Shown here one piece after another: positions 1,843 through 11,807 of a stretch of DNA of 11,807 nt. This stretch comes from Treponema sp. UBA4326 (GTDB taxonomy: Bacteria; Spirochaetota; Spirochaetia; Treponematales; Treponemataceae), in assembly GCA_002393835.1 (NCBI GenBank), contig DGTW01000209.1:1-11807 (forward strand). The letters are read 5' to 3'. The translations under genes were made by a program, and so were the position numbers. The notes under the pieces were generated by a model. It saw only the letters and a program-made list of their open reading frames with translations, was not told the DNA's origin and did not search any database. Each line of letters starts with the position of its first letter. Within the stretch, counting starts at the first letter, position 1.

Positions 1843-3459
1843 ATGAAGCGTAAATTTCAGATTTCTGCCCTTTCTGCCAAACTTATCATAGGTGCCGTTT
1901 TCTTCGGCCTTTTCATGTGCGTCATCAATAGTTTTGTAAGCTATCATGAATTCAAGACTCAGGTTGAAAGCCTTTATAAAAATGTAACAAAGCAATTTGC
2001 AGAAACAGCCGTCTCTTATGTTGACCCGGAGAGAATTCCATACTGGCTTAAAGACGGAAGCGACGGTTTATGGGACAGCACAAATCAGCGTCTCAACGAG
2101 CTTACGGAAACTGCGGAAGTTGCCTTCATTTACCTTACGGTTCTTTCTTCAGATTATAAATCACGCACTTATGTTTTTGACACGGTGAACAGTCTGGTTA
2201 TAGACTCTAAAGTCATCCCTCTTGGCTTTGTTCAGTCCTTGGAACACAAAACTCCTGATTATATCGAAAATTTACGCCTCATAATGGAAGAAGGAAAAGT
2301 CCAAAGTTATTTTTCTTACAGCAAAAAAGGCGGTCATGTTACCACATCCATTCCAGTGCGTAATTACATGGGAAAAACAGTTGCAATTATGAGCGTAGTC
2401 AAACCCATGGAAGAAATAAGGGAATACAAGACAAATTACCTCCGCTCAATGATTTTTGCGGCCCTTGCCTTTACTGCACTCTTTATCGTTCTTTATACTC
2501 TCTCCCTTTTTGCAGGAATTATTCGCCCCCTCATGCTTATAATCGACGAAACATCTCATTTTGCCGAGCATCATGGTGAGCTTACGGGGCTTCTTAAAAA
2601 AATCAAAAACCGTGACGAACTGGGACTTCTTGCAAAATCCGTTGAAAAAATGAGCGTGGACATGAACAAATACATTTCAGACCTTACTGCCGCCACGGCC
2701 GAAAGGGAAAGAATTGGAGCAGAGCTTAATGTCGCCACGAAAATTCAAGCGGAAATGCTGCCACGGACATTCCCGCCCTACAAAAATTGCCCGGAAATCG
2801 AACTTTATGCGAGCATGAGTCCTGCGAAGGAAGTAGGCGGCGATTTTTACGATTTTTTCATGGTTGATGAAGACCATTTTGCCCTCGTTGTGGCTGATGT
2901 CTCAGGCAAAGGGGTGCCGGCCGCCCTCTTTATGGTCGTTGCGAAAACCCTTTTGAAAGACGCTGCTTTCACCTTCAAAACACCGGCCGAAATTTTTGCT
3001 CATGTAAATAATACCCTGTGCGAGAACAATGCTTCTGGCCTTTTTGTCACCTGCTGGATGGCTATTCTTGAAATCAGCACAGGCAAAATGACTTTCGCAA
3101 ATGCCGGACATACACCGCCTCTTATTTACAAGGATCGTAATATTTCCTTCCTGAAGACACAGCCCGATCTTATGCTTGCCGCAATGGAAGGAATGCCTTA
3201 CGAAAACCATGAAATTACGCTGGGCTCTTGCGACAGAATCTTCGTTTATACAGACGGAGTAACCGAGGCTACGAACAGCGAAGAGCAGCTTTACGGTGAG
3301 GAAAGACTTTTGAAGAGGCTGCAACTGGATACCACAAAAGTCCTTTCTCCAAAGGAGATAATAGACTTCGTGCGTGCTGATATAGATGAATTTGTCGGTG
3401 GTGCGCCTCAGTTTGATGATATAACCATGCTGGAAATGCTATATAAACCCACTAAATAA
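1843..3459 (+). CDS. Membrane HAMP / SpoIIE-type PP2C serine phosphatase (RsbU-like)
   Basis: A 538-residue sensor phosphatase. Residues 11-32 are a first membrane helix, 33-200 a probable periplasmic sensing domain, 203-227 a second membrane helix, and 226-280 a HAMP-like linker. A helix with the family signature ERIGAELNVATKIQAEMLP leads into the phosphatase domain (about 318-535). Metal-binding motifs are intact: EVGGDFYD (330-337), ADVSGKGVPAALFM (351-364), YTDGVTEA (469-476) and QFDDITML (523-530). Family members dephosphorylate a STAS-domain antagonist, which then captures an RsbW-type kinase. Both partners are encoded next door: the kinase begins 11 nt downstream, and the STAS gene is convergent beyond it. 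The signal sensed is unknown. The start is supported by AGGA at 1833-1836. Confidence 0.93.
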   Translation: MKRKFQISALSAKLIIGAVFFGLFMCVINSFVSYHEFKTQVESLYKNVTKQFAETAVSYVDPERIPYWLKDGSDGLWDSTNQRLNELTETAEVAFIYLTVLSSDYKSRTYVFDTVNSLVIDSKVIPLGFVQSLEHKTPDYIENLRLIMEEGKVQSYFSYSKKGGHVTTSIPVRNYMGKTVAIMSVVKPMEEIREYKTNYLRSMIFAALAFTALFIVLYTLSLFAGIIRPLMLIIDETSHFAEHHGELTGLLKKIKNRDELGLLAKSVEKMSVDMNKYISDLTAATAERERIGAELNVATKIQAEMLPRTFPPYKNCPEIELYASMSPAKEVGGDFYDFFMVDEDHFALVVADVSGKGVPAALFMVVAKTLLKDAAFTFKTPAEIFAHVNNTLCENNASGLFVTCWMAILEISTGKMTFANAGHTPPLIYKDRNISFLKTQPDLMLAAMEGMPYENHEITLGSCDRIFVYTDGVTEATNSEEQLYGEERLLKRLQLDTTKVLSPKEIIDFVRADIDEFVGGAPQFDDITMLEMLYKPTK

Positions 3460-3460
3460 T

Positions 3461-3465
3461 GGAGG
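3461..3465 (+). promoter_or_regulatory. Shine-Dalgarno GGAGG that fixes the kinase start
   Basis: GGAGG lies 5 nt before the ATG at 3471. An in-frame ATG at 3459 overlaps the phosphatase stop codon and would place this site inside the coding sequence, so 3471 is the better start. The 1-nt stop/start proximity at 3459 still suggests translational coupling. Confidence 0.75.
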
Positions 3466-3470
3466 TAAAA

Positions 3471-3869
3471 ATGAAAGAATTGACTATTCTTGCGGACGAC
3501 AAAAATATGGAGGCAGTAAATGATTTTGTTCATTCTGTTTTCCCTGAAGATTGTCCTGCCGCTATCATTTACAAGATTGATTTGGCCGTGGAGGAAATAT
3601 TTGTTAATATAGCTCACTATGCTTACAGTCCCAACAGCGGAGAGGCGAAAATTCTGGCATCTTTTGAAAATGGCGAGCTGATGCTGGTTTTTTGCGACAG
3701 TGGAAAGGCCTTCAATCCAATCGAAAAAAAAGACCCCGACATTACGCTCAGTGCAGAAGAGCGTGACATCGGGGGACTTGGCATCTTCCTTACGAAGAAA
3801 TTTATGGATAGCGTTGAATACGAATACAAGGACGGCCAGAATATCCTGACCCTCCGTAAACGCATTTAG
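3471..3869 (+). CDS. RsbW-like anti-sigma factor / serine kinase (HATPase_c_2)
   Basis: A 132-residue GHKL-fold ATPase. The N box DLAVEEIFVNIAHYAY (38-52; Glu42, Asn46), the G1 box VFCDSGKAF (73-81; Asp76, Gly78) and the G2 box GGLGIFLTKKFMD (101-113) are all present, which argues for working ATP binding. In the RsbW/SpoIIAB family such proteins hold a sigma factor or another effector, and phosphorylate a STAS partner on serine. The gene follows the phosphatase by 11 nt in one operon. It converges on the STAS gene with only 3 nt between stop codons. No sigma factor is visible in the window, so the controlled target is unknown. Confidence 0.9.
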   Translation: MKELTILADDKNMEAVNDFVHSVFPEDCPAAIIYKIDLAVEEIFVNIAHYAYSPNSGEAKILASFENGELMLVFCDSGKAFNPIEKKDPDITLSAEERDIGGLGIFLTKKFMDSVEYEYKDGQNILTLRKRI

Positions 3870-3872
3870 CTG

Positions 3873-4172
3873 TTATTCTTTGTTTAGAACTTTATCCATT
3901 CCCGTTGCTTCCAGCACCTGCATACAGAATGCTGAAGGCGAACGGAGAATCATTTTCCCGCCTGTTGGAAGCATGACTTTGTGAGCAAGAAGTATTACAC
4001 GAAGCCCGGCACTTGAAACATAGTCTATGCCGCTGAGATTGATGTAAAGGTTCATTTTTATTTTTGGGATTTTGTTCAGCTCTGCTTCCAGCTGGGGGGC
4101 TGTTCCTGTGTCGAGTCTTCCTTCAACAACGAGCTCAATTCCGTCTGCAACTTTGTTTTCTTTAATTGTCAT
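3873..4172 (-). CDS. STAS-domain anti-anti-sigma factor (RsbV/SpoIIAA-like)
   Basis: A 99-residue protein that is a single STAS domain. The core motif LYINLSGIDYVSSAGLRVIL (42-61) is typical; by alignment with SpoIIAA/RsbV, Ser54 is the likely phosphorylated residue, though Ser53 is possible. The unphosphorylated form would bind the kinase at 3471-3869, and the phosphatase at 1843-3459 would regenerate it. The start has AGAGG (4180-4184) 7 nt upstream. It lies 33 nt downstream of the FGE-like gene on the same strand with no terminator between, so the two are probably cotranscribed. Placing V on the strand opposite to U and W is unusual for such modules. Confidence 0.88.
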   Translation of the reverse strand: MTIKENKVADGIELVVEGRLDTGTAPQLEAELNKIPKIKMNLYINLSGIDYVSSAGLRVILLAHKVMLPTGGKMILRSPSAFCMQVLEATGMDKVLNKE

Positions 4173-5337: not shown

Positions 5338-8300
5338 TTATTTGAGGGAAATTCCCATTACGCTTGAAGCCTGTGAGCCGAAAGAGTGGCCCGTGTAAGA
5401 GCCGTTTGTGTATCCGCTCAGTTTGATTGTGCCGTCTGCATTTCTGTAGCTTGTGTGTACAGATGAGTTGCAGGCCAGGCTTGTGGCTGTAGTAGAAGGA
5501 GCTGAAATAGTGGTAGAGAAATCTTTCTGTCCGTTCGTGATTGAGGCGGCAGAAGAGATATAGTAGTACTTACTGTTGGTGAAGTAAACGGAATTAGAAA
5601 TCGTTGAGGCTACGCTTGATGTACCGTACTTGTCGCTGCTCTTTGGAGCGAGAGTGAGCATGTGGTCGAATTTGCCCTTGTTGGTGCGGTAGAAGTTGAA
5701 GTTTACCTTTGCGTTTCCGTAAGATGTACAGTAAGAAACATTGAGGGCTCCTCCGTTTCCGTTGTCTGTAAATCCGTCGTGTCCGTTTCCGACAGCGAGA
5801 CAGTTTGTTACAACGTGGGCTGTAGGAACCTTACCGTTTGAACCACCAAGTTTGAATCCGTTCATATCGCCGTTTGCGTAGCTTGAATTTGTTGTGAGGC
5901 GTCCGTTGTTGTAAGCCACGCAGTTTCTGATTGTTACGACACCGATTGAGCCTGTTGCTTCTTTTGCGTAGAGGTCCCATCCGTCATCACAGTTACAGTA
6001 AGCGATACATCCGTCAAATACGTTTCCGTTTCCTGTGGTGAGTTTGCAGGCAAATCCGTCTGCATTTTCACCTGTTGCAGGGTCTGCGTTGTCGAAGGCT
6101 GTACAGTTGAGAATCAGGTTGTTTGCAGGCCAGTCGCTCATTGAAGACATAGAAGATTTTTCCCGTCCAAGCTGAAGGCCTGTGTCACGGTTTGCGTAGA
6201 ATACACAAAGCTCGACGATGTTGTTGCTTCCGCCGATGTACATGCCGTTGTCACCGGCTCCTGTTACATTGATTCCGAAGAAGTGCCAGTAATCACCGAA
6301 AATCTGGATACCGCGGTTAGAGTCAGAAAGAGCCTCGCCTGAGAAGTCGAAGATGACCTTGTTTGCAGAGCCTGGTTCTGCCATTACATACTTCATTGCA
6401 GAAGATGAACCCTTGTTTGATGAAGCGATTGTAATTGGTGAAGAGAACTTGTAGGTTCCGGCCTTGATTACGACAGCCTGACCGCCTGCGACTTTTGAGA
6501 TGGCAGAAGTGATTTCTGAGGCTGACTGACAGTAAATGTAGCTCTTGATCTGAGATTTGTTTGTGATTTCTGTGAGGCGTGAACGGCTTCCAACTCCGCT
6601 CTGAGTTATTGAGCCTGTGTTAGAGAGTCCTGAGCCGCTTCCTGTGCTTCCAGAAGAAGATTCGCTTCCGCTTGAAGATGACCCACTTCCTGAAGATGAA
6701 CCGCTTTCAGAAGATGAGCCTGAGCTTCCAGATGATGAGCCGCTTGAGCCTGAAGAAGAGGCAGAAGAAGCTGAAACATAGATTTCGTAGACCCGGATTG
6801 CGCTTCCTGCTGAGTAAACATAGAAAGTTCCGCTTTTTGTCGTGGTGTAGCTCAAAAGAGTTGCACCTGTTCCGACTGAGACTGACTTGAGGACAGCTGA
6901 GCCGTCAGAAATCTGGAGTGTGCGAGCTGAATCTGCTGTTGCGACTACAGAAATTGTTGCCCCAGAAGCCGCGTCGAATTTGACTGCACGGTATGTGGGT
7001 TTTGTTCCTGCAAATCCGCCCTTAAGATCCAGGGCTTTCGTGTAGTTGTTTGAGTTGTAAGTCAAAGATGAATTGACGATTGCAACCGGCTTGTCAGATG
7101 AGGCGAGCACCTGGAATGAAGCGTAAGTTGCGTTTGAAGTTACAGCACCCGCAGAAAGGCTTGTGGGTTTGAATGAAATTGCCGAGCCTGTTGAAGCTGA
7201 GCTTTCGCCTGAGCTTGAAGAGCCGTTTCCGCTTGAAGATGAGCTTCCGCCTGAGCTGGATGAGCCGCTTGAGCCTGAAGATGAGCCAGAAGAGCTACCT
7301 GAAGATGAGCCTGAAGTGCTGCCAGATGATGAGTCTGAGCTTGAAGAAGAGCCTGAGACATAGACTTCATAGATTTTAAGTGAGCTTGAAGAAGAGTAGA
7401 GGTAGAAGGTTCCGCTCTTTGTCGTCGTGTAGTTGAGGACAGAAGCTGCGCTTGTGACAGAAGCCGTTTTGAGGACTGATGAGCCGTCAGAGAGGTTGAG
7501 GGTTCTCGTTGAGCCTGCGTTTGCGACTACAGTGATTGAAGAACCGGCAGCAGCATTGAATTTGATTGCGCGGTAAGTCGGTTTTACTCCGTCAGCTCCA
7601 CCGCCTAAATCAATGGCCTGCTTGTAGTTGTTTGAGTTGTATGAAAGCGAGTTTTTTGAGACTTTCACGGTTTTTGCGCTTGTGGCAAGAATTGTGAAAG
7701 AGCCGCTTGTTGTGTTTGAAGAAAGTGTTCCAACTGTGAGGTTGTCGCCCTTCAAAGAGACTGCTGATGCCGGTGCTGTCGTGCTTCCAGAAGATGAGCC
7801 TGAGCCAGATGAAGAACTTCCTGAGCCAGATGAGCTTCCGCTTGAACCAGATGAACTTCCAGAGCCTGATGAAGAAGAGCCGCTTCCAGAAGAGCTTCCA
7901 GATTCAGATGATGAGCCAGAGCCGCTTTCACTTGAGTCTGAGCTTGTGTTCGTGTTGTAGGCTGTTGTAGCCCCTGTGTATGAAGCGAGCTTTGATTTGA
8001 GAGTGTTGTCTATATCTGCGCTTGAATCAGCTGAAGAAGAGAATGTGTACTGGAAATCCCCGCCCTCGATTCGACCGGCGTACTTTTTGACATTTGCCAT
8101 GGCATTTGCCGGAGAATCTGCTGTGTAAGAATACATGATGCTTGAAGTGTCGAAGTTGTTGTACTTGTTAGAGCCTGCGGCTGAAGCAACACTTGAAGGA
8201 ACCGTGTCATAGCGTGATGAAACTACATAAGCGTCAAAGTCAGTTTTTGTGTCAGCTCCTGAGTAGCTTCCGCCATAAGGAATGAAATTGTAGGTTCCGT

Positions 8301-9696
8301 TGAATGAGTTGTTGTAAGCCTTGATCATGCCGCCGTTTTCTTTTGAGAATGTGGCATTGTCGGTCTTCTTTGTTGAAGTTCCGGCATACAAGTCGCTTCC
8401 CTGCATTGAAATCATCATCGGGTATTTGCAGTTTCTGAAGTAGTTTGACTCCATGAATACTGATGAACCTAAGCAAGCACCGGCACCGTATTTTGCGTTT
8501 CCGTCGTAGTAGTTGTTGTAGACATGGGCTGAGTAGAATCTTACGCGAGGATGGCGTGAATCTGAGTGGTCATACCAGTTGTGATGATAGGTGATGTAGA
8601 GTCCGTCTGTCGTTCCTTCGCTTAAGCCCAGAAGGTTACATTTTCCTGAATCCCAGAAGTGGTTGTAAGAGAAGGTGACATAAGTTGATTTTTTGCAGTC
8701 CAGGGCTCCGTCGCCTTTTTTCTGGTCAGCGTCCCCGCCGGCCTCTCCGTAGAACATGTCGCAGTTGTGAACCCAGACATTCTCGCATGACTGCTGGAGA
8801 GAGACATTGTCACCCTCGGCAGAATCGACCATCATAAAGCCGATGTTTGCGACCTCAACATATTTTGCGTTCTTGAGGCGGATTCCCCAGCCGTAAGCCG
8901 TAGCGTCCGAGCCGACACCTTCAATTGTGATTCCGTTTGAGAGGAGTTTTGTGGCTCCTGAGCCTGAAACCATGATGTCGCCGCCGTCACTTACAGCGAA
9001 GTCAGTGATTTTTCCGATGAGGCGTACGCAGAGAGGGCGGTTGTCATAGCCTTTTTTGAAAGCCGTGAGAATGTCCTGAAGACCTTTTGCTGATGTGACT
9101 GCTCCTTTTGAAGAAGTGACCACATCCAGGGAGATTGTATCTTTGTTCGAGTTGTTGATGTGAAGGACAACGGCGTTGTCTTTGAGGGTGCCGTCTGCCT
9201 TGTAAGCGCCCGGAGTTGTGTTTCCGTAGAAAGCGAATCCTGAGCGGTCATGCGAGACGACTGTTACCGTTGCAGAAAGGTAAGAGGAGCCGCTTGTTAC
9301 CTTGATTGTGTGGCTTCCGGCTTTGAGGCCTGGAATGTCGCATCGCCACTGTGAGCCGATTTTACGGGTGAGCAGAGAGTTTACGGCCACGCCGTCACAG
9401 GTGACAGTGTAGTTTGTGGGTGAGCCAGTCCATACGATGTAAGCGCTGTTGAGCCAGCCCTGGGCTTTGACTCCTGTAAGACCGCTTCCTGTTGGAATTG
9501 CTGAGCCTGGAGTTCCTATTCCGCTTGAAGAAGCCGAGTAGGTGGCAGCCCGTGATAAGAGTGAGCTTGATTCAACAACCGGACTTTTGGCTGAGTTTGA
9601 ATCAACTTCGTCAATCTCGGCAATGTCAGAACAGCCTGACAATACGAGTGCTGCGGCGAGACTTGCACAAATCATCGCCTTTAAACTTTTTTTCAT
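5338..9696 (-). CDS. Bimodular PL1 + PL9 pectate lyase lipoprotein
   Basis: A 1452-residue lipoprotein (lipobox LSGC, Cys22). About 70-148 looks like an Ig/FN3-type segment. About 150-545 is a PL1 pectate lyase: NVWVHNCD (306-313), GDGALDCKKSTYVTFSYNHF (328-347), Lys352, and HHNWYDHSDSRHPRVRF (371-387), where Arg381 matches the catalytic Arg of PelC. Ser/Gly linkers flank two copies of a ~139-residue module (643-781, 837-975). About 1040-1452 is a PL9 beta-helix lyase: Asp1213 in NADGF and Asp1237, Asp1238 and Asp1241 in CDDGWDL keep the spacing of the Pel9A calcium ligands (209, 233, 234, 237), and Lys1282 in GFKLGG is the probable base. Both lyases should cleave polygalacturonate by beta-elimination at the cell surface or in the periplasm. 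GGGGG (9702-9706) sits 5 nt before the ATG. The gene is monocistronic. Confidence 0.93.
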   Translation of the reverse strand: MKKSLKAMICASLAAALVLSGCSDIAEIDEVDSNSAKSPVVESSSLLSRAATYSASSSGIGTPGSAIPTGSGLTGVKAQGWLNSAYIVWTGSPTNYTVTCDGVAVNSLLTRKIGSQWRCDIPGLKAGSHTIKVTSGSSYLSATVTVVSHDRSGFAFYGNTTPGAYKADGTLKDNAVVLHINNSNKDTISLDVVTSSKGAVTSAKGLQDILTAFKKGYDNRPLCVRLIGKITDFAVSDGGDIMVSGSGATKLLSNGITIEGVGSDATAYGWGIRLKNAKYVEVANIGFMMVDSAEGDNVSLQQSCENVWVHNCDMFYGEAGGDADQKKGDGALDCKKSTYVTFSYNHFWDSGKCNLLGLSEGTTDGLYITYHHNWYDHSDSRHPRVRFYSAHVYNNYYDGNAKYGAGACLGSSVFMESNYFRNCKYPMMISMQGSDLYAGTSTKKTDNATFSKENGGMIKAYNNSFNGTYNFIPYGGSYSGADTKTDFDAYVVSSRYDTVPSSVASAAGSNKYNNFDTSSIMYSYTADSPANAMANVKKYAGRIEGGDFQYTFSSSADSSADIDNTLKSKLASYTGATTAYNTNTSSDSSESGSGSSSESGSSSGSGSSSSGSGSSSGSSGSSSGSGSSSSGSGSSSGSTTAPASAVSLKGDNLTVGTLSSNTTSGSFTILATSAKTVKVSKNSLSYNSNNYKQAIDLGGGADGVKPTYRAIKFNAAAGSSITVVANAGSTRTLNLSDGSSVLKTASVTSAASVLNYTTTKSGTFYLYSSSSSLKIYEVYVSGSSSSSDSSSGSTSGSSSGSSSGSSSGSSGSSSSGGSSSSSGNGSSSSGESSASTGSAISFKPTSLSAGAVTSNATYASFQVLASSDKPVAIVNSSLTYNSNNYTKALDLKGGFAGTKPTYRAVKFDAASGATISVVATADSARTLQISDGSAVLKSVSVGTGATLLSYTTTKSGTFYVYSAGSAIRVYEIYVSASSASSSGSSGSSSGSSGSSSESGSSSGSGSSSSGSESSSGSTGSGSGLSNTGSITQSGVGSRSRLTEITNKSQIKSYIYCQSASEITSAISKVAGGQAVVIKAGTYKFSSPITIASSNKGSSSAMKYVMAEPGSANKVIFDFSGEALSDSNRGIQIFGDYWHFFGINVTGAGDNGMYIGGSNNIVELCVFYANRDTGLQLGREKSSMSSMSDWPANNLILNCTAFDNADPATGENADGFACKLTTGNGNVFDGCIAYCNCDDGWDLYAKEATGSIGVVTIRNCVAYNNGRLTTNSSYANGDMNGFKLGGSNGKVPTAHVVTNCLAVGNGHDGFTDNGNGGALNVSYCTSYGNAKVNFNFYRTNKGKFDHMLTLAPKSSDKYGTSSVASTISNSVYFTNSKYYYISSAASITNGQKDFSTTISAPSTTATSLACNSSVHTSYRNADGTIKLSGYTNGSYTGHSFGSQASSVMGISLK
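6628..6771 (-). repeat. Ser/Gly-rich linker 3 (before the PL9 domain)
   Basis: Encodes residues 976-1023 of the lyase, almost only Ser and Gly with a few Glu. It links the second ~139-residue module to the PL9 domain and is probably a flexible spacer. The DNA is low-complexity and prone to slippage. Confidence 0.8.
6772..7188 (-). repeat. Internal module, copy B (residues 837-975)
   Basis: Second copy of the ~139-residue unit. It aligns without gaps to copy A, with about 79 of 139 positions identical by my hand count. The most conserved parts are the YNSNNY, GTKPTYRAVKF, ISDG and YTTTKSGTFYVYS motifs, ending in YEIYVS. The predicted fold is all-beta. A carbohydrate-binding role is likely from its position between two lyases, but I do not recognise a named CBM family. 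Confidence 0.8.
7189..7353 (-). repeat. Ser/Gly-rich linker 2 (between the two modules)
   Basis: Encodes residues 782-836, dominated by GSSSGSSS-type units, between module copies A and B. Antisense open frames over this stretch only reflect its composition. Confidence 0.8.
7354..7770 (-). repeat. Internal module, copy A (residues 643-781)
   Basis: First copy of the ~139-residue unit. Shared landmarks with copy B are SLSYNSNNY, KPTYRAIKF, NLSDGS and YTTTKSGTFYLYS, ending in YEVYVS. The two copies have diverged to about 57% identity while keeping equal length, which suggests an old duplication kept under selection. Confidence 0.8.
7771..7944 (-). repeat. Ser/Gly-rich linker 1 (after the PL1 domain)
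   Basis: Encodes residues 585-642, the longest of the three linkers, with repeated SGSGSSSS and SSGSSGSSS units. It separates the PL1 domain from module copy A. Confidence 0.8.
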
Positions 9697-9810
9697 ACAT
9701 TCCCCCTTTTTGAATGTAGCGAAAGAGGCTGAAAAGAGAAAAATCCGATATTTAGCTCTTTGTCAGTCTTTTCATAAAAACAGTATCAAATGTTTTTAAA
9801 TTCATGTTCT

Positions 9811-9839
9811 TTGCAGAATTTGGATTATTCAGATATAAT
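9811..9839 (+). promoter_or_regulatory. Possible second, upstream promoter toward rex
   Basis: TTGCAG (9811-9816, 3/6), a 17-bp spacer and a perfect TATAAT (9834-9839). The last base of the -10 is also the first base of the 9-bp inverted repeat at 9839-9860, so a protein bound there would cover the start point. The region is very AT-rich, so a chance match is possible. Confidence 0.3.
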
Positions 9840-9860
9840 TTCTAAGAAATATCTTAGAAA
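9839..9860. promoter_or_regulatory. Perfect 9-bp inverted repeat in the lyase/rex divergent region (putative operator)
   Basis: Arms TTTCTAAGA (9839-9847) and TCTTAGAAA (9852-9860) are exact reverse complements around AATA. The repeat lies 142 nt upstream of the lyase ATG and 75 nt upstream of the rex ATG, so it could act on either. It does not match the TGTGAA-N4-TTCACA Rex pattern seen on the other side of rex, so a different regulator is likelier. The rest of 9697-9935 is AT-rich; I found no convincing minus-strand promoter for the lyase. Confidence 0.55.
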
Positions 9861-9900
9861 AATCTCAAAAATCTCTAATATTCAATAAATTTTTATATTA

Positions 9901-9929
9901 ATGACAGGAAAAGTGTTTTGTGATATAAC
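9901..9929 (+). promoter_or_regulatory. Predicted promoter of rex, possibly leaderless
   Basis: ATGACA (9901-9906, 5/6), a 17-bp spacer and TATAAC (9924-9929, 5/6) with a TGn extension (TGA at 9921-9923). The -10 ends 6 nt before the ATG at 9936, so the transcript would start at the start codon. Only a weak GGA (9930-9932) precedes the ATG. A lone TTGTGA half-site (9918-9923) overlaps the promoter. Confidence 0.6.
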
Positions 9930-9935
9930 GGAATT

Positions 9936-10547
9936 ATGAAAAAAATGCCAAACCCTTCAAAAAAGCGACTTGTAATTTTGGCACGAATTCTCTCCCAGCA
10001 GGGCAAAAAAAAGGTCACTTCTGTTGATTTGAGTGCTCTTACCGGCTGGAGCGAGGCCACGATAAGACGGGATATTTCAATTCTGGAACTTCATCAGGGA
10101 GCCAGCAACGGCTATGATGCAGGCCTTTTAAGGGAGGCGATTTGCGCAGCCCTGGACATAAATTTGGCTGATTCAGAAAAGCACAGGTGCTGTATTGTTG
10201 GCTTGGGAAAGCTGGGTGAAGCCCTTTTGGAGTCTTCTGTTTTTAAGGGAAGTGATTTTGAGCTTGTAGCCGGTTTTGACACGAACTTCAACAAAATCGA
10301 AATTATGAAAAGTGAAATTCCTCTTTTCGCAACTTTGGATTTGGAAAGAAAAATACGCTCGTTAAAGATTGAATATGCGATTCTTGCAGTCCCAGACGAA
10401 AAAGCCCAGTTTATGGCTGACAGGCTTGTTTCTTACGGAATCAAAGGAATAGTAAATTACACGAATATAGTCCTTTCCCTGCCAAAAGAGATTAGGGTAG
10501 AACATGTAAATACCGTGGCTGTCCTTACGACAATGGCCTTAAAGTAA
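9936..10547 (+). CDS. rex: Redox-sensing transcriptional repressor of the Rex family
   Basis: A 203-residue protein, close to the usual ~210 for Rex. Residues 1-75 form the winged-helix DNA-binding domain; the recognition region SEATIRRDISIL (39-50) matches the family's RKDLS pattern, followed by the family's NGYDAGLLREAI. Residues 84-190 are a Rossmann domain: VGLGKLGEALL (88-98; Gly89, Gly91, Gly94) binds the dinucleotide, and Asp115 in AGFDTNF is at the position that selects NAD(H) over NADP(H). The end (VEHVNTVAVLTTMALK) corresponds to the domain-swapped C-terminal helix. Rex leaves DNA when NADH rises. Two Rex-operator-like palindromes lie 3' of the gene before serC. The GefGkrG stretch of classical Rex is altered here (ELHQGASNG), so this is a divergent member. 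A later ATG at 9945 is possible. Confidence 0.88.
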   Translation: MKKMPNPSKKRLVILARILSQQGKKKVTSVDLSALTGWSEATIRRDISILELHQGASNGYDAGLLREAICAALDINLADSEKHRCCIVGLGKLGEALLESSVFKGSDFELVAGFDTNFNKIEIMKSEIPLFATLDLERKIRSLKIEYAILAVPDEKAQFMADRLVSYGIKGIVNYTNIVLSLPKEIRVEHVNTVAVLTTMALK

Positions 10548-10575
10548 GTAATGAAAATGTAAAGACTGTTTTCCT

Positions 10576-10605
10576 CTTTTACTGTGAAAAATTTCACAGT
10601 AAAAG
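10576..10605. promoter_or_regulatory. Rex-operator-like palindrome 1, also a possible rex terminator hairpin
   Basis: Perfect 14-bp arms (CTTTTACTGTGAAA at 10576-10589 and TTTCACAGTAAAAG at 10592-10605) around AA. The core TGTGAA-AAAT-TTCACA (10583-10598) matches the known Rex operator pattern. It starts 28 nt after the rex stop codon and ends 21 nt before the serC -35 box. The arms are followed by CTCTTTTT (10606-10613), so in RNA it could also work as a weak, AT-rich terminator for rex. Confidence 0.75.
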
Positions 10606-10626
10606 CTCTTTTTCTCCCCCTTTTGA

Positions 10627-10655
10627 TTGACCAAGCCTTGGTAAACTTCTAAAAT
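10627..10655 (+). promoter_or_regulatory. Predicted sigma70-type promoter of serC
   Basis: TTGACC (10627-10632, 5/6), a 17-bp spacer and TAAAAT (10650-10655, 5/6), giving a start near 10662. The spacer contains a 6-bp inverted repeat (ACCAAG and CTTGGT around a C, 10630-10642). The two Rex-operator-like sites lie on either side of the promoter. Confidence 0.7.
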
Positions 10656-10670
10656 CTTGAACATAAATTC

Positions 10671-10686
10671 TGTGAAAGATTTCACA
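10671..10686. promoter_or_regulatory. Rex-operator-like palindrome 2, just downstream of the serC start point
   Basis: TGTGAA (10671-10676), AGAT, then TTCACA (10681-10686): a second exact match to the Rex half-site pattern. Its centre is about 16 bp after the predicted serC transcription start and 88 bp from the centre of palindrome 1. This is a typical place for a repressor to block RNA polymerase. Confidence 0.75.
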
Positions 10687-10695
10687 CAGAAAAGT

Positions 10696-10777
10696 CGGTA
10701 CCGGGGCGTTGCGGGGTGTCCCCGCAGAGTGGGGTGCGGCATAACGAAGTATGACGCAGGGGAGAGACTTCTCCCCT
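10696..10777 (+). other. GC-rich structured leader with three consecutive hairpins before serC
   Basis: Within AT-rich surroundings this ~80-nt block begins with the palindrome CGGTACCG (10696-10703). Hairpin 1: GCGGGG/CCCCGC with a TGT loop (10711-10725). Hairpin 2: TGCGGCATA/TATGACGCA with one G-A mismatch (10735-10758). Hairpin 3: AGGGGAG/CTCCCCT with a 6-nt loop (10758-10777). The AGGAG ribosome-binding site follows at 10783-10787. It may be a cis-regulatory RNA or a dispersed repeat copy; I cannot match it to a known riboswitch class. Confidence 0.6.
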
Positions 10778-10793
10778 AGAATAGGAGTTAAAA

Positions 10794-11807
10794 ATGGCTA
10801 GAGTCTACAATTTCAGTGCAGGTCCTTCTTGCTTGCCGGAAGAAGTTTTGAATGAATGTGCGGCAGAAATGCTTGATTACAATGGAACAGGTCAGTCCGT
10901 AATGGAAATGAGCCACCGCTCAAAGGCTTACGAGCCAATCATCGAGGACGCTGAAAAAATGGTCCGCAAATTGATGAATGTTCCTGAAAATTACAAAGTC
11001 CTTTTCGTTCAGGGCGGAGGAAGCACTCAGTTTGCAATGGTCGCTCAGAACCTTGGCATCAAAAACAAAAAGGCCGCTTACATTGAGACTGGTGTTTGGG
11101 CAAAAAAAGCTGCCGCAGAGGCTAAAAAGCTGGGAATCGCAGTTGATGTAATCGCTTCTTCAAAAGACAAGAACTATTCTTATATCCCGAAAGTTGAGAA
11201 AATCACTGGCGACTATGATTACGCCTATATCTGCTTTAACAACACAATCATGGGAACTCACTACGAGTACATTCCTGACACAGGCGACATTCCTTTGGTT
11301 GCAGACATTTCTTCATGCGTTTTGAGCGAGCCTCTTGATGTCTCAAAATTCGGGCTTCTTTTCGCTGGCGCTCAGAAAAACCTGGCACCGGCTGGCGTTA
11401 CTTTGGTAATCGTCCGTGAAGACCTGATTCCTGAAGTTGACGCTTGTTTGCCGGGAACTCCGACAATGCTCGCTTACAAAACACACGCTGACAATGGCAG
11501 CATGTACAACACACCGCCATGCTACACAATCTACGTTCTTGGAAAAGTCCTTCACTGGATTGAAAAGAACGGCGGAGCTGAAGGTATGCTCAAACGAAAC
11601 AAGGAAAAGGCTGATTACCTCTACAACTTCCTTGATTCAAGCGATTTCTACCATGCCACAACTGAGAAGGGAAGCCGCTCTCTGATGAACGTTCCTTTCC
11701 TCACAAAATACTCTACTGCCGAGACAGCAGCCGCTGGAAAGAAAGACGAGGCTGACCGCTCTGACGCAGAAAAAGCAGCTCTGGCAAAAGAAAAGGAAAT
11801 CAACGAC
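10794..11807 (+). CDS. serC: Phosphoserine aminotransferase SerC (3' end beyond the window)
   Basis: 338 residues are visible and the frame is still open at the window end. The N-terminus MARVYNFSAGPSCLPEEVL, GQSVMEMSHRS (33-43), the cofactor-phosphate loop QGGGSTQF (73-80), VADISS (Asp171, which holds the PLP ring nitrogen) and FAGAQKNLAPAGVTLVIVR (190-208, PLP lysine Lys195) are all intact SerC signatures. SerC transaminates 3-phosphohydroxypyruvate with glutamate in serine synthesis, and also serves pyridoxal phosphate synthesis in some bacteria. AGGAG (10783-10787) is 6 nt before the ATG. After SLMNVPF (296-302) the usual short stretch before the AAGL..LKGHR motif is replaced by at least 35 Ala/Lys/Glu-rich residues, an apparent insertion. 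Control by the neighbouring rex is suggested by the two operator-like sites. Confidence 0.95.
   Translation, partial: MARVYNFSAGPSCLPEEVLNECAAEMLDYNGTGQSVMEMSHRSKAYEPIIEDAEKMVRKLMNVPENYKVLFVQGGGSTQFAMVAQNLGIKNKKAAYIETGVWAKKAAAEAKKLGIAVDVIASSKDKNYSYIPKVEKITGDYDYAYICFNNTIMGTHYEYIPDTGDIPLVADISSCVLSEPLDVSKFGLLFAGAQKNLAPAGVTLVIVREDLIPEVDACLPGTPTMLAYKTHADNGSMYNTPPCYTIYVLGKVLHWIEKNGGAEGMLKRNKEKADYLYNFLDSSDFYHATTEKGSRSLMNVPFLTKYSTAETAAAGKKDEADRSDAEKAALAKEKEIND

Follow-up and report, generated by a model that had tools for sequence, protein, structure and literature searches.

Probable Rex control of serine genes through two matching palindromic sites in gut Treponema

Does the serC gene of a gut treponeme, which lies next to a rex gene and has two matching palindromes around its promoter, respond to NADH through the neighboring repressor? 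We addressed this question in a stretch of 11,807 nt from Treponema sp. UBA4326 (contig DGTW01000209.1), referred to as the window, for which a first-pass annotation had proposed exactly this connection. Judged by comparison of sequences, serine genes in gut Treponema are very probably under the control of Rex acting through two matching sites.

The rex-serC locus of the window

The features of the locus are listed in Table 1. The serC gene starts 246 bp past rex on the same strand. The annotation of its neighbor as a Rex-family gene was confirmed by the NCBIfam Rex model NF003995 (134.5 bits against a cut-off of 126; eight further Rex models match below their own cut-offs) and by matches to Rex structures in the PDB down to an E-value of 1e-23, the best of them being 2vt2. 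The protein carries the GxGxxG motif as IVGLGKLGEAL, aligned to Rex structures, and its closest species-named relative among the matches listed is the Rex of Treponema ruminis (79%). Both annotated palindromes match TGTGAA-N4-TTCACA at all 12 core positions and agree with TTGTGAA-N4-TTCACAA in the core, the outermost T/A pair being replaced by C/G at the first site and by C/C at the second. With transcription taken to start near 10662, the predicted operators are centered at about -72 and +17. The promoter sequence TTGACC-17-TAAAAT does sit between them, as had been claimed, but the match is not significant by itself, since a scan of positions 9700-10850 gave 3 promoter-like sites against 2.1 in shuffled sequences. 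Behind the truncated serC of the window the next gene is probably serA, which does follow in T. ruminis; the earlier remark that serA often follows serC was borne out in 78 of the 85 loci long enough to tell, some species being represented more than once.

Table 1. Coordinates of the features around the serC promoter in the window
Feature	Position	Strand	Description
rex	9936-10547	+	203 aa; NAD(H)-sensing winged-helix repressor; recognition helix I43-R44-R45-D46; GLGKLG dinucleotide motif
Upstream predicted Rex operator	10576-10605		core TGTGAAAAATTTCACA at 10583-10598; 14-bp perfect inverted repeat
Putative serC promoter	10627-10655	+	TTGACC-17-TAAAAT (-35 at 10627-10632, -10 at 10650-10655); transcription start inferred at ~10662
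Downstream predicted Rex operator	10671-10686		TGTGAAAGATTTCACA; ~+10 to +25 relative to the inferred start; 88 bp from the upstream operator
serC, phosphoserine aminotransferase	10794-11807	+	incomplete, contig end falls inside the gene

The first palindrome forms the core of the 14-bp inverted repeat, which is followed by a T-rich stretch, so that in the window genome it could double as the end of the rex transcript. This second role as a rex terminator is possible. That the first palindrome does nothing but terminate rex transcription and that the second echoes it by chance appears scarcely credible to us. The window has a strong 13-pair hairpin with a T-rich tail (-15.5 kcal/mol, z -6.8), but L016, the only relative folded, has the same core without the long hairpin (z -1.2), and the core also occurs in front of rex or of an isolated serC, places where a terminator is not expected.

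Past the downstream operator, the leader of serC up to the ribosome site (10702-10778) is a copy of a double-hairpin repeat of about 75 bp, which has 16 matches in the same genome, this copy counted, and no credible match in Rfam. The folding z-value for positions 10662-10800 is -3.6. An ORF of at least 100 aa begins within the next 70 bases in only 1 of the 10 other copies read, and the element therefore looks like an interspersed repeat.

Conservation of the palindromes and their association with serine genes

Relatives that keep rex-serC but lose both palindromes would contradict the first-pass annotation, and the survey gave no such contradiction. We observed rex together with one or more Rex-type palindromes before rex-serC or serC in 54 of the 57 same-genus genomes that have at least one of the two genes (G008 and G054 have neither), counting up to one mismatch to TGT(G/T)A(A/T)-N4-(A/T)T(C/A)ACA, while the chance controls cover the strict forms of this pattern only. 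The annotated layout is thus conserved as far as the presence of a palindrome is concerned, but many genomes carry one site and not two. Two of the remaining three genomes (G011 and G028) are interrupted by contig ends, and the third, G052, lacks rex and matches the palindrome poorly. G028 belongs to the genomes with rex and serC split, whereas G002 and G053 seem split merely through contig ends. With at most one mismatch, 26 of the 57 genomes have TGTGAA-N4-TTCACA in the regions searched, the other half-sites among its 90 permutations reaching at most 2; the TGTTAA form is present in 24 of the 57, where none of the other half-sites among its 60 permutations exceeds 6. Among 80 loci from named species, which overlap the same-genus set, at least one site was found in 63 of the 64 with serC in reach, and the one left over begins at a contig edge. 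The survey covered the genus and the neighboring family, with 27 genomes of other families outside it. In the neighboring family a site was found in 8 of the 11 genomes examined, 16-38 bp before the gene start; there was no site at serC in G065 and G082 and none at rex in G096, whose serC was not found. In both of the rex-less genomes checked, G052 and G065, no good site is present at serC.

The arrangement of rex and serC differs among the relatives, and this bears on the question of whether the sites serve autoregulation of rex, with serC a bystander in the operon or the neighborhood. Where only a small gap separates the two genes, the sites lie 5' of rex and hence upstream of both genes. 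Many relatives have this tight operon, and Rex controls itself elsewhere, as PMC6391272 reports. In the clade of the window, however, the sites are placed between rex and serC, and the 320 bp that precede rex contain no such palindrome. Moreover, in genomes with unlinked genes and readable sites the palindromes are located at serC in 10 of 10 cases (on different contigs in G013, G021, G022, G036, G038, G047, G051, G079 and G093; more than 1 Mb apart in T. ruminis), and in G087 an operator precedes rex-serA with serC elsewhere, the serA product being 58% identical to T. ruminis SerA. Among the named loci, 13 of the 16 without serC in reach have no site before rex and one has only a weak one, while two keep it (T. 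socranskii L197 and Marseille-Q4130 L212). In favor of autoregulation, T. socranskii L199 and G030 have the site at rex, with serC following 2.1 and 1.2 kb on behind other ORFs, and no site was found directly before serC in either. All in all, we regard it as very improbable that rex is the sole object of these sites. On the Rex tree, which is poorly resolved (126 columns, T. ruminis absent), the fewest changes required are 8 for linkage and likewise 8 for site position.

The cleanest case is T. ruminis, where the palindrome pair precedes serC-serA and rex is more than 1 Mb off. In this locus (L254:6508-6955) pflB (formate C-acetyltransferase) and serC are read in diverging directions, and one Rex pair could thus act on both. 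Among the unlinked genomes the gene on the other side of serC varies: it is pflB in T. ruminis and, judged by eye, in G051, and others are found elsewhere.

Rex residue 45, operator spacing and the sign of regulation

In one clade the sites take the form TGTTA-N6-TAACA, and the same clade has His in place of Arg/Lys at residue 45 of Rex. Assigned by hand, the TGTGA class consists of 37 genomes with the recognition helix R-R/K-D, and the TGTTA class of 19 genomes with a readable N-terminus and the helix R-H-D. We counted the fourth half-site position within the genus using a pattern blind to G and T, and obtained 112 G and 12 T for Arg/Lys45 compared to 41 T and 3 G for His45. For the named loci the numbers were 192 G, 25 T and 1 A with Arg/Lys and 7 T and 5 G with His, the latter because TGTTA...TCACA sites of mixed type occur in five of the six His-type loci; mixed half-sites are also present in several Arg/Lys genomes. 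The tree shows a single switch to His45 and TGTTA, a count that leaves out the mixed-site and Tyr genomes, and for this reason the covariation counts are not independent and have no statistical weight as a repeated event. The half-site counts include a site 301 bp before rex in G057 and a weak TATTATTATTATAACA before rex in G047, both of which the tree labels omit.

According to PMC8376106 and PMC8836258, this G is contacted by Arg51 of S. agalactiae Rex and by Lys49 of T. maritima Rex in structures with DNA. R44-R45 of the window protein were aligned, via a relative, to I-R-K-D of T. maritima Rex, and from the order of residues they should correspond to Arg50-Arg51 of the S. agalactiae protein; they form the Arg-Arg/Lys pair that is predicted to contact the two G of TTGTGA. 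We propose that residue 45 may act as the specificity residue. The equivalent position in our alignment is Gln in the Rex of PDB 3wg9, which we take to be T. ethanolicus Rex. For T. ethanolicus Rex the operator ATTGTTA-N6-TAACAAT is cited in PMC5886521.

The covariation also bears on a different candidate for the regulator, namely a member of the CRP/FNR family, which perhaps activates from the upstream position. The CRP consensus is TGTGA-N6-TCACA, and a spacing of about -72 is typical for class I activators. Both the core of the palindromes and the location of the upstream site conform to this, and an HTH_Crp_2 match was found in 57 of the 59 genomes searched (45 of them above the cut-off), including that of the window (G000:C342, E 7e-15). 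However, G062 (99% complete) and G079 (93%) gave no HTH_Crp_2 match at E<=1e-3 with this one CRP model and nevertheless keep exact rex/serC palindromes, and the change to TGTTA tracks the contact residue of Rex, a covariation that a CRP factor would leave unexplained. In addition, known Rex sites occur both as TTGTGA and as TTGTTA (PMC8376106, PMC5886521). We therefore give a CRP/FNR-type regulator very little credence compared to Rex.

The position of the sites relative to the promoter was analyzed in the 27 genomes with two sites. The downstream site begins 12-16 bp past the -10 box in 16 of them, 22-23 bp past it in 9, and 33 and 56 bp past it in one each. In most of them this places the site immediately behind the start, where a repressor would be expected to bind. 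Most genomes of the His clade have one site only. The operator-to-operator distances of the 27 genomes follow a period of about 10 bp (none of 2000 jittered sets was as good; for the 17 distinct values p = 0.02). From the upstream site to the -35 box we observed distances near 18, 28, 38, 69 and 79 bp, corresponding to a ladder of about 10.25 bp with p-values of 0.0003 upstream, 0.11 downstream and 0.00065 jointly, a test that is post hoc, with the gaps collapsed by hand to five upstream and three downstream values and with G021 left out owing to an unfitting promoter call. The spacing suggests that the helix face of the upstream site matters, via cooperation with the other site or via contact with the polymerase. 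Promoter calls of the type TATAAT(G) at 69-70 bp from the site in the His clade were discarded; the one read closely, in G056, is the start codon region.

With considerable confidence, we interpret the palindromes as operators of the adjacent Rex, with serC as the target, serA as the likely second gene and a repression through both sites that NADH would relieve. The sequences themselves establish which genes are rex and serC, the exactness and conservation of the sites, their movement with the serine genes and their covariation with the contact residue of Rex, from which binding, the sign of regulation and the part played by the upstream site are deduced. Rex, either NAD+-bound or free, would occupy both sites. 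The downstream operator, just past the transcription start, would block RNA polymerase, and the upstream operator, on an apparently preferred side of the helix, would reinforce repression by cooperative binding or looping. A rise in NADH would then release Rex and allow serC-serA to be transcribed. Rex normally releases DNA at high NADH. Transcription of serC-serA should consequently rise under this condition and SerA would add still more NADH, which amounts to positive feedback and not to simple NADH balancing. The argument of the first-pass annotation, that such control is sensible because SerA makes NADH, thus runs into a difficulty of sign. Possibly serine drains off 3-phosphoglycerate when glycolysis is backed up; the odd sign might also be explained if SerA recycles its own cofactor or if Rex activates from the upstream site.

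In the case of activation, Rex would bind as proposed but switch serC-serA on via the upstream site, resulting in a sensible negative NADH feedback. This agrees with the ladder of upstream distances, its values being those collapsed by hand, and with one C. bescii operon for which PMC8579813 infers activation by Rex from 45 bp before the start. Nevertheless, the site just past the inferred start in most double-site genomes and the single site of the neighboring family, 16-38 bp before the gene, speak against it, and so does a related C. bescii operon that is higher in a rex deletion (log2 0.57-0.63, taken without significance marks; PMC6391272), which fits repression. We thus consider activation unlikely.

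Breadth of the regulon and comparison with known systems

To look for further targets of Rex, we scanned whole genomes for strong sites. The assembly of the window (2.98 Mb in 373 contigs, 74% complete) contains exactly two copies of TGTGAA-N4-TTCACA, both in the rex-serC gap at the serC promoter and nowhere else. At up to one mismatch 12 sites were found compared to 2 for the reversed pattern; nine of the other ten are within ORFs of at least 90 aa and one is intergenic. The sole exact palindrome of the T. ruminis chromosome precedes serC-serA, its partner site being 87 bp away, and the sole exact site of the T. parvum chromosome precedes rex-serC. At up to one mismatch T. ruminis has 19 sites compared to 9 in the control, and beyond the serC pair 16 of 17 are located in ORFs and one is intergenic. 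Eleven relatives (10 of them at least 90% complete) contain 20 exact TGTGAW-N4-WTCACA sites in total, compared to a control total of 1. Twelve of the 20 are at rex/serC, two at ldh (G001), four in ORFs and two elsewhere in intergenic regions; in G044 and G068 the single exact site is located away from rex/serC. The ldh gene is a classical Rex target, and the two exact palindromes of G001 (L126:1501-1547) are 31 bp apart and 5' of this gene for L-lactate dehydrogenase. T. socranskii, with a His-type Rex, has one exact TGTGA-type site, which is located inside an ORF. Two more sites of this species, at G099:C1:1388280 and G099:C2:685267, are of the mixed type TGTTA...TCACA.

In the genome of the window we also found the site CGTGAAAACTTTCACA (L009:1501-1552), 7 bp before TTGACA-17-TATAAA and about 330 bp 5' of a glutamine synthetase III gene. 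This gene was rejected as a regulon member: a TGTGA-type site with at most one mismatch was found in 0 of 29 other upstream regions, in a comparison of one locus each from the 30 of 59 genomes with a match (several are paralogues at 55-60% identity, and one region comprises 175 bp). We take the site as due to chance or as lineage-specific.

On the strength of the strong-site scans of T. ruminis, the window genome and the 11 relatives, the Rex regulon of Treponema appears to be largely confined to serine genes, with serC as the only conserved target found. A more far-reaching scenario, which we consider evenly balanced between right and wrong, is that Rex, once a global regulator of fermentation, became in Treponema almost entirely a regulator of serine biosynthesis, that the operators stayed at serC or serA the several times that these were separated from rex, and that in one large clade the replacement of Arg/Lys by His at a base-contacting residue moved the specificity of Rex from TGTGA to TGTTA, thereby reaching the operator form used by a Firmicute Rex with Gln at this position.

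Control of serine genes by Rex is not a new idea as such, since in the unrelated thermophile C. bescii Rex binds before the Athe_2126 operon, which encodes a class V aminotransferase and a phosphoglycerate dehydrogenase and is the one with the higher level in the rex deletion (PMC6391272). For 14 Caldicellulosiruptor genomes PMC8579813 also predicts that SerC and SerA belong to the Rex regulon, and Athe_2126 presumably is the SerC of that study. The Athe_2126 operon and the treponeme genes are alike in the Rex family, in the two-gene serine operon and in an operator in the promoter region. In the Firmicute C. bescii, however, the operon is one of a broad regulon with hydrogenases, POR and others, and several other Rex-bound operons drop in the rex deletion (PMC6391272), whereas the treponeme genomes yielded no conserved target other than serC, and their rex gene frequently belongs to the operon itself. 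In Thermotogales, Rex regulons include a serine-pyruvate aminotransferase (Ravcheev 2012, as cited in PMC6391272); Rex is thus tied to a serine-related aminotransferase as it is here, but there the connection is to the use of serine and not to phosphoserine synthesis. The canonical operator is given as TTGTGAA-N4-TTCACAA in PMC8376106. The treponeme core is identical to canonical Rex operators in both half-site forms, while its flanks, often TACTGTGA or TATTGTGA, are different, and the TGTTA form goes with His at the contact position where the Rex of PDB 3wg9 has Gln.

Our literature searches returned no described spirochaete Rex regulon, no Rex with serine genes as its conserved targets and no His-type Rex specificity. 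New here are accordingly the spirochaete lineage, the strong-site regulon that appears largely limited to serine genes, the His switch and the paired operators. If the proposed control is true, the supply of serine and one-carbon units would be directly governed by NADH, in a phylum for which we found no Rex regulon described, and the question arises why NADH should switch on a pathway that makes NADH. The genus would also offer natural intermediates for the joint change of a repressor and its operator, with GG, TG and TT half-sites and Arg, Lys, Tyr and His in the protein.

Two further regions of the window were noted. A putative exported protein of 1452 aa is encoded at 5338-9696 on the minus strand, with long Ser/Gly-rich linkers separating its domains, and its ends resemble polysaccharide lyases, by eye only. 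Positions 1843-4172 contain ORFs resembling, again by eye, a PP2C-type phosphatase, an anti-sigma kinase and a STAS protein, which together look like a partner-switching module.
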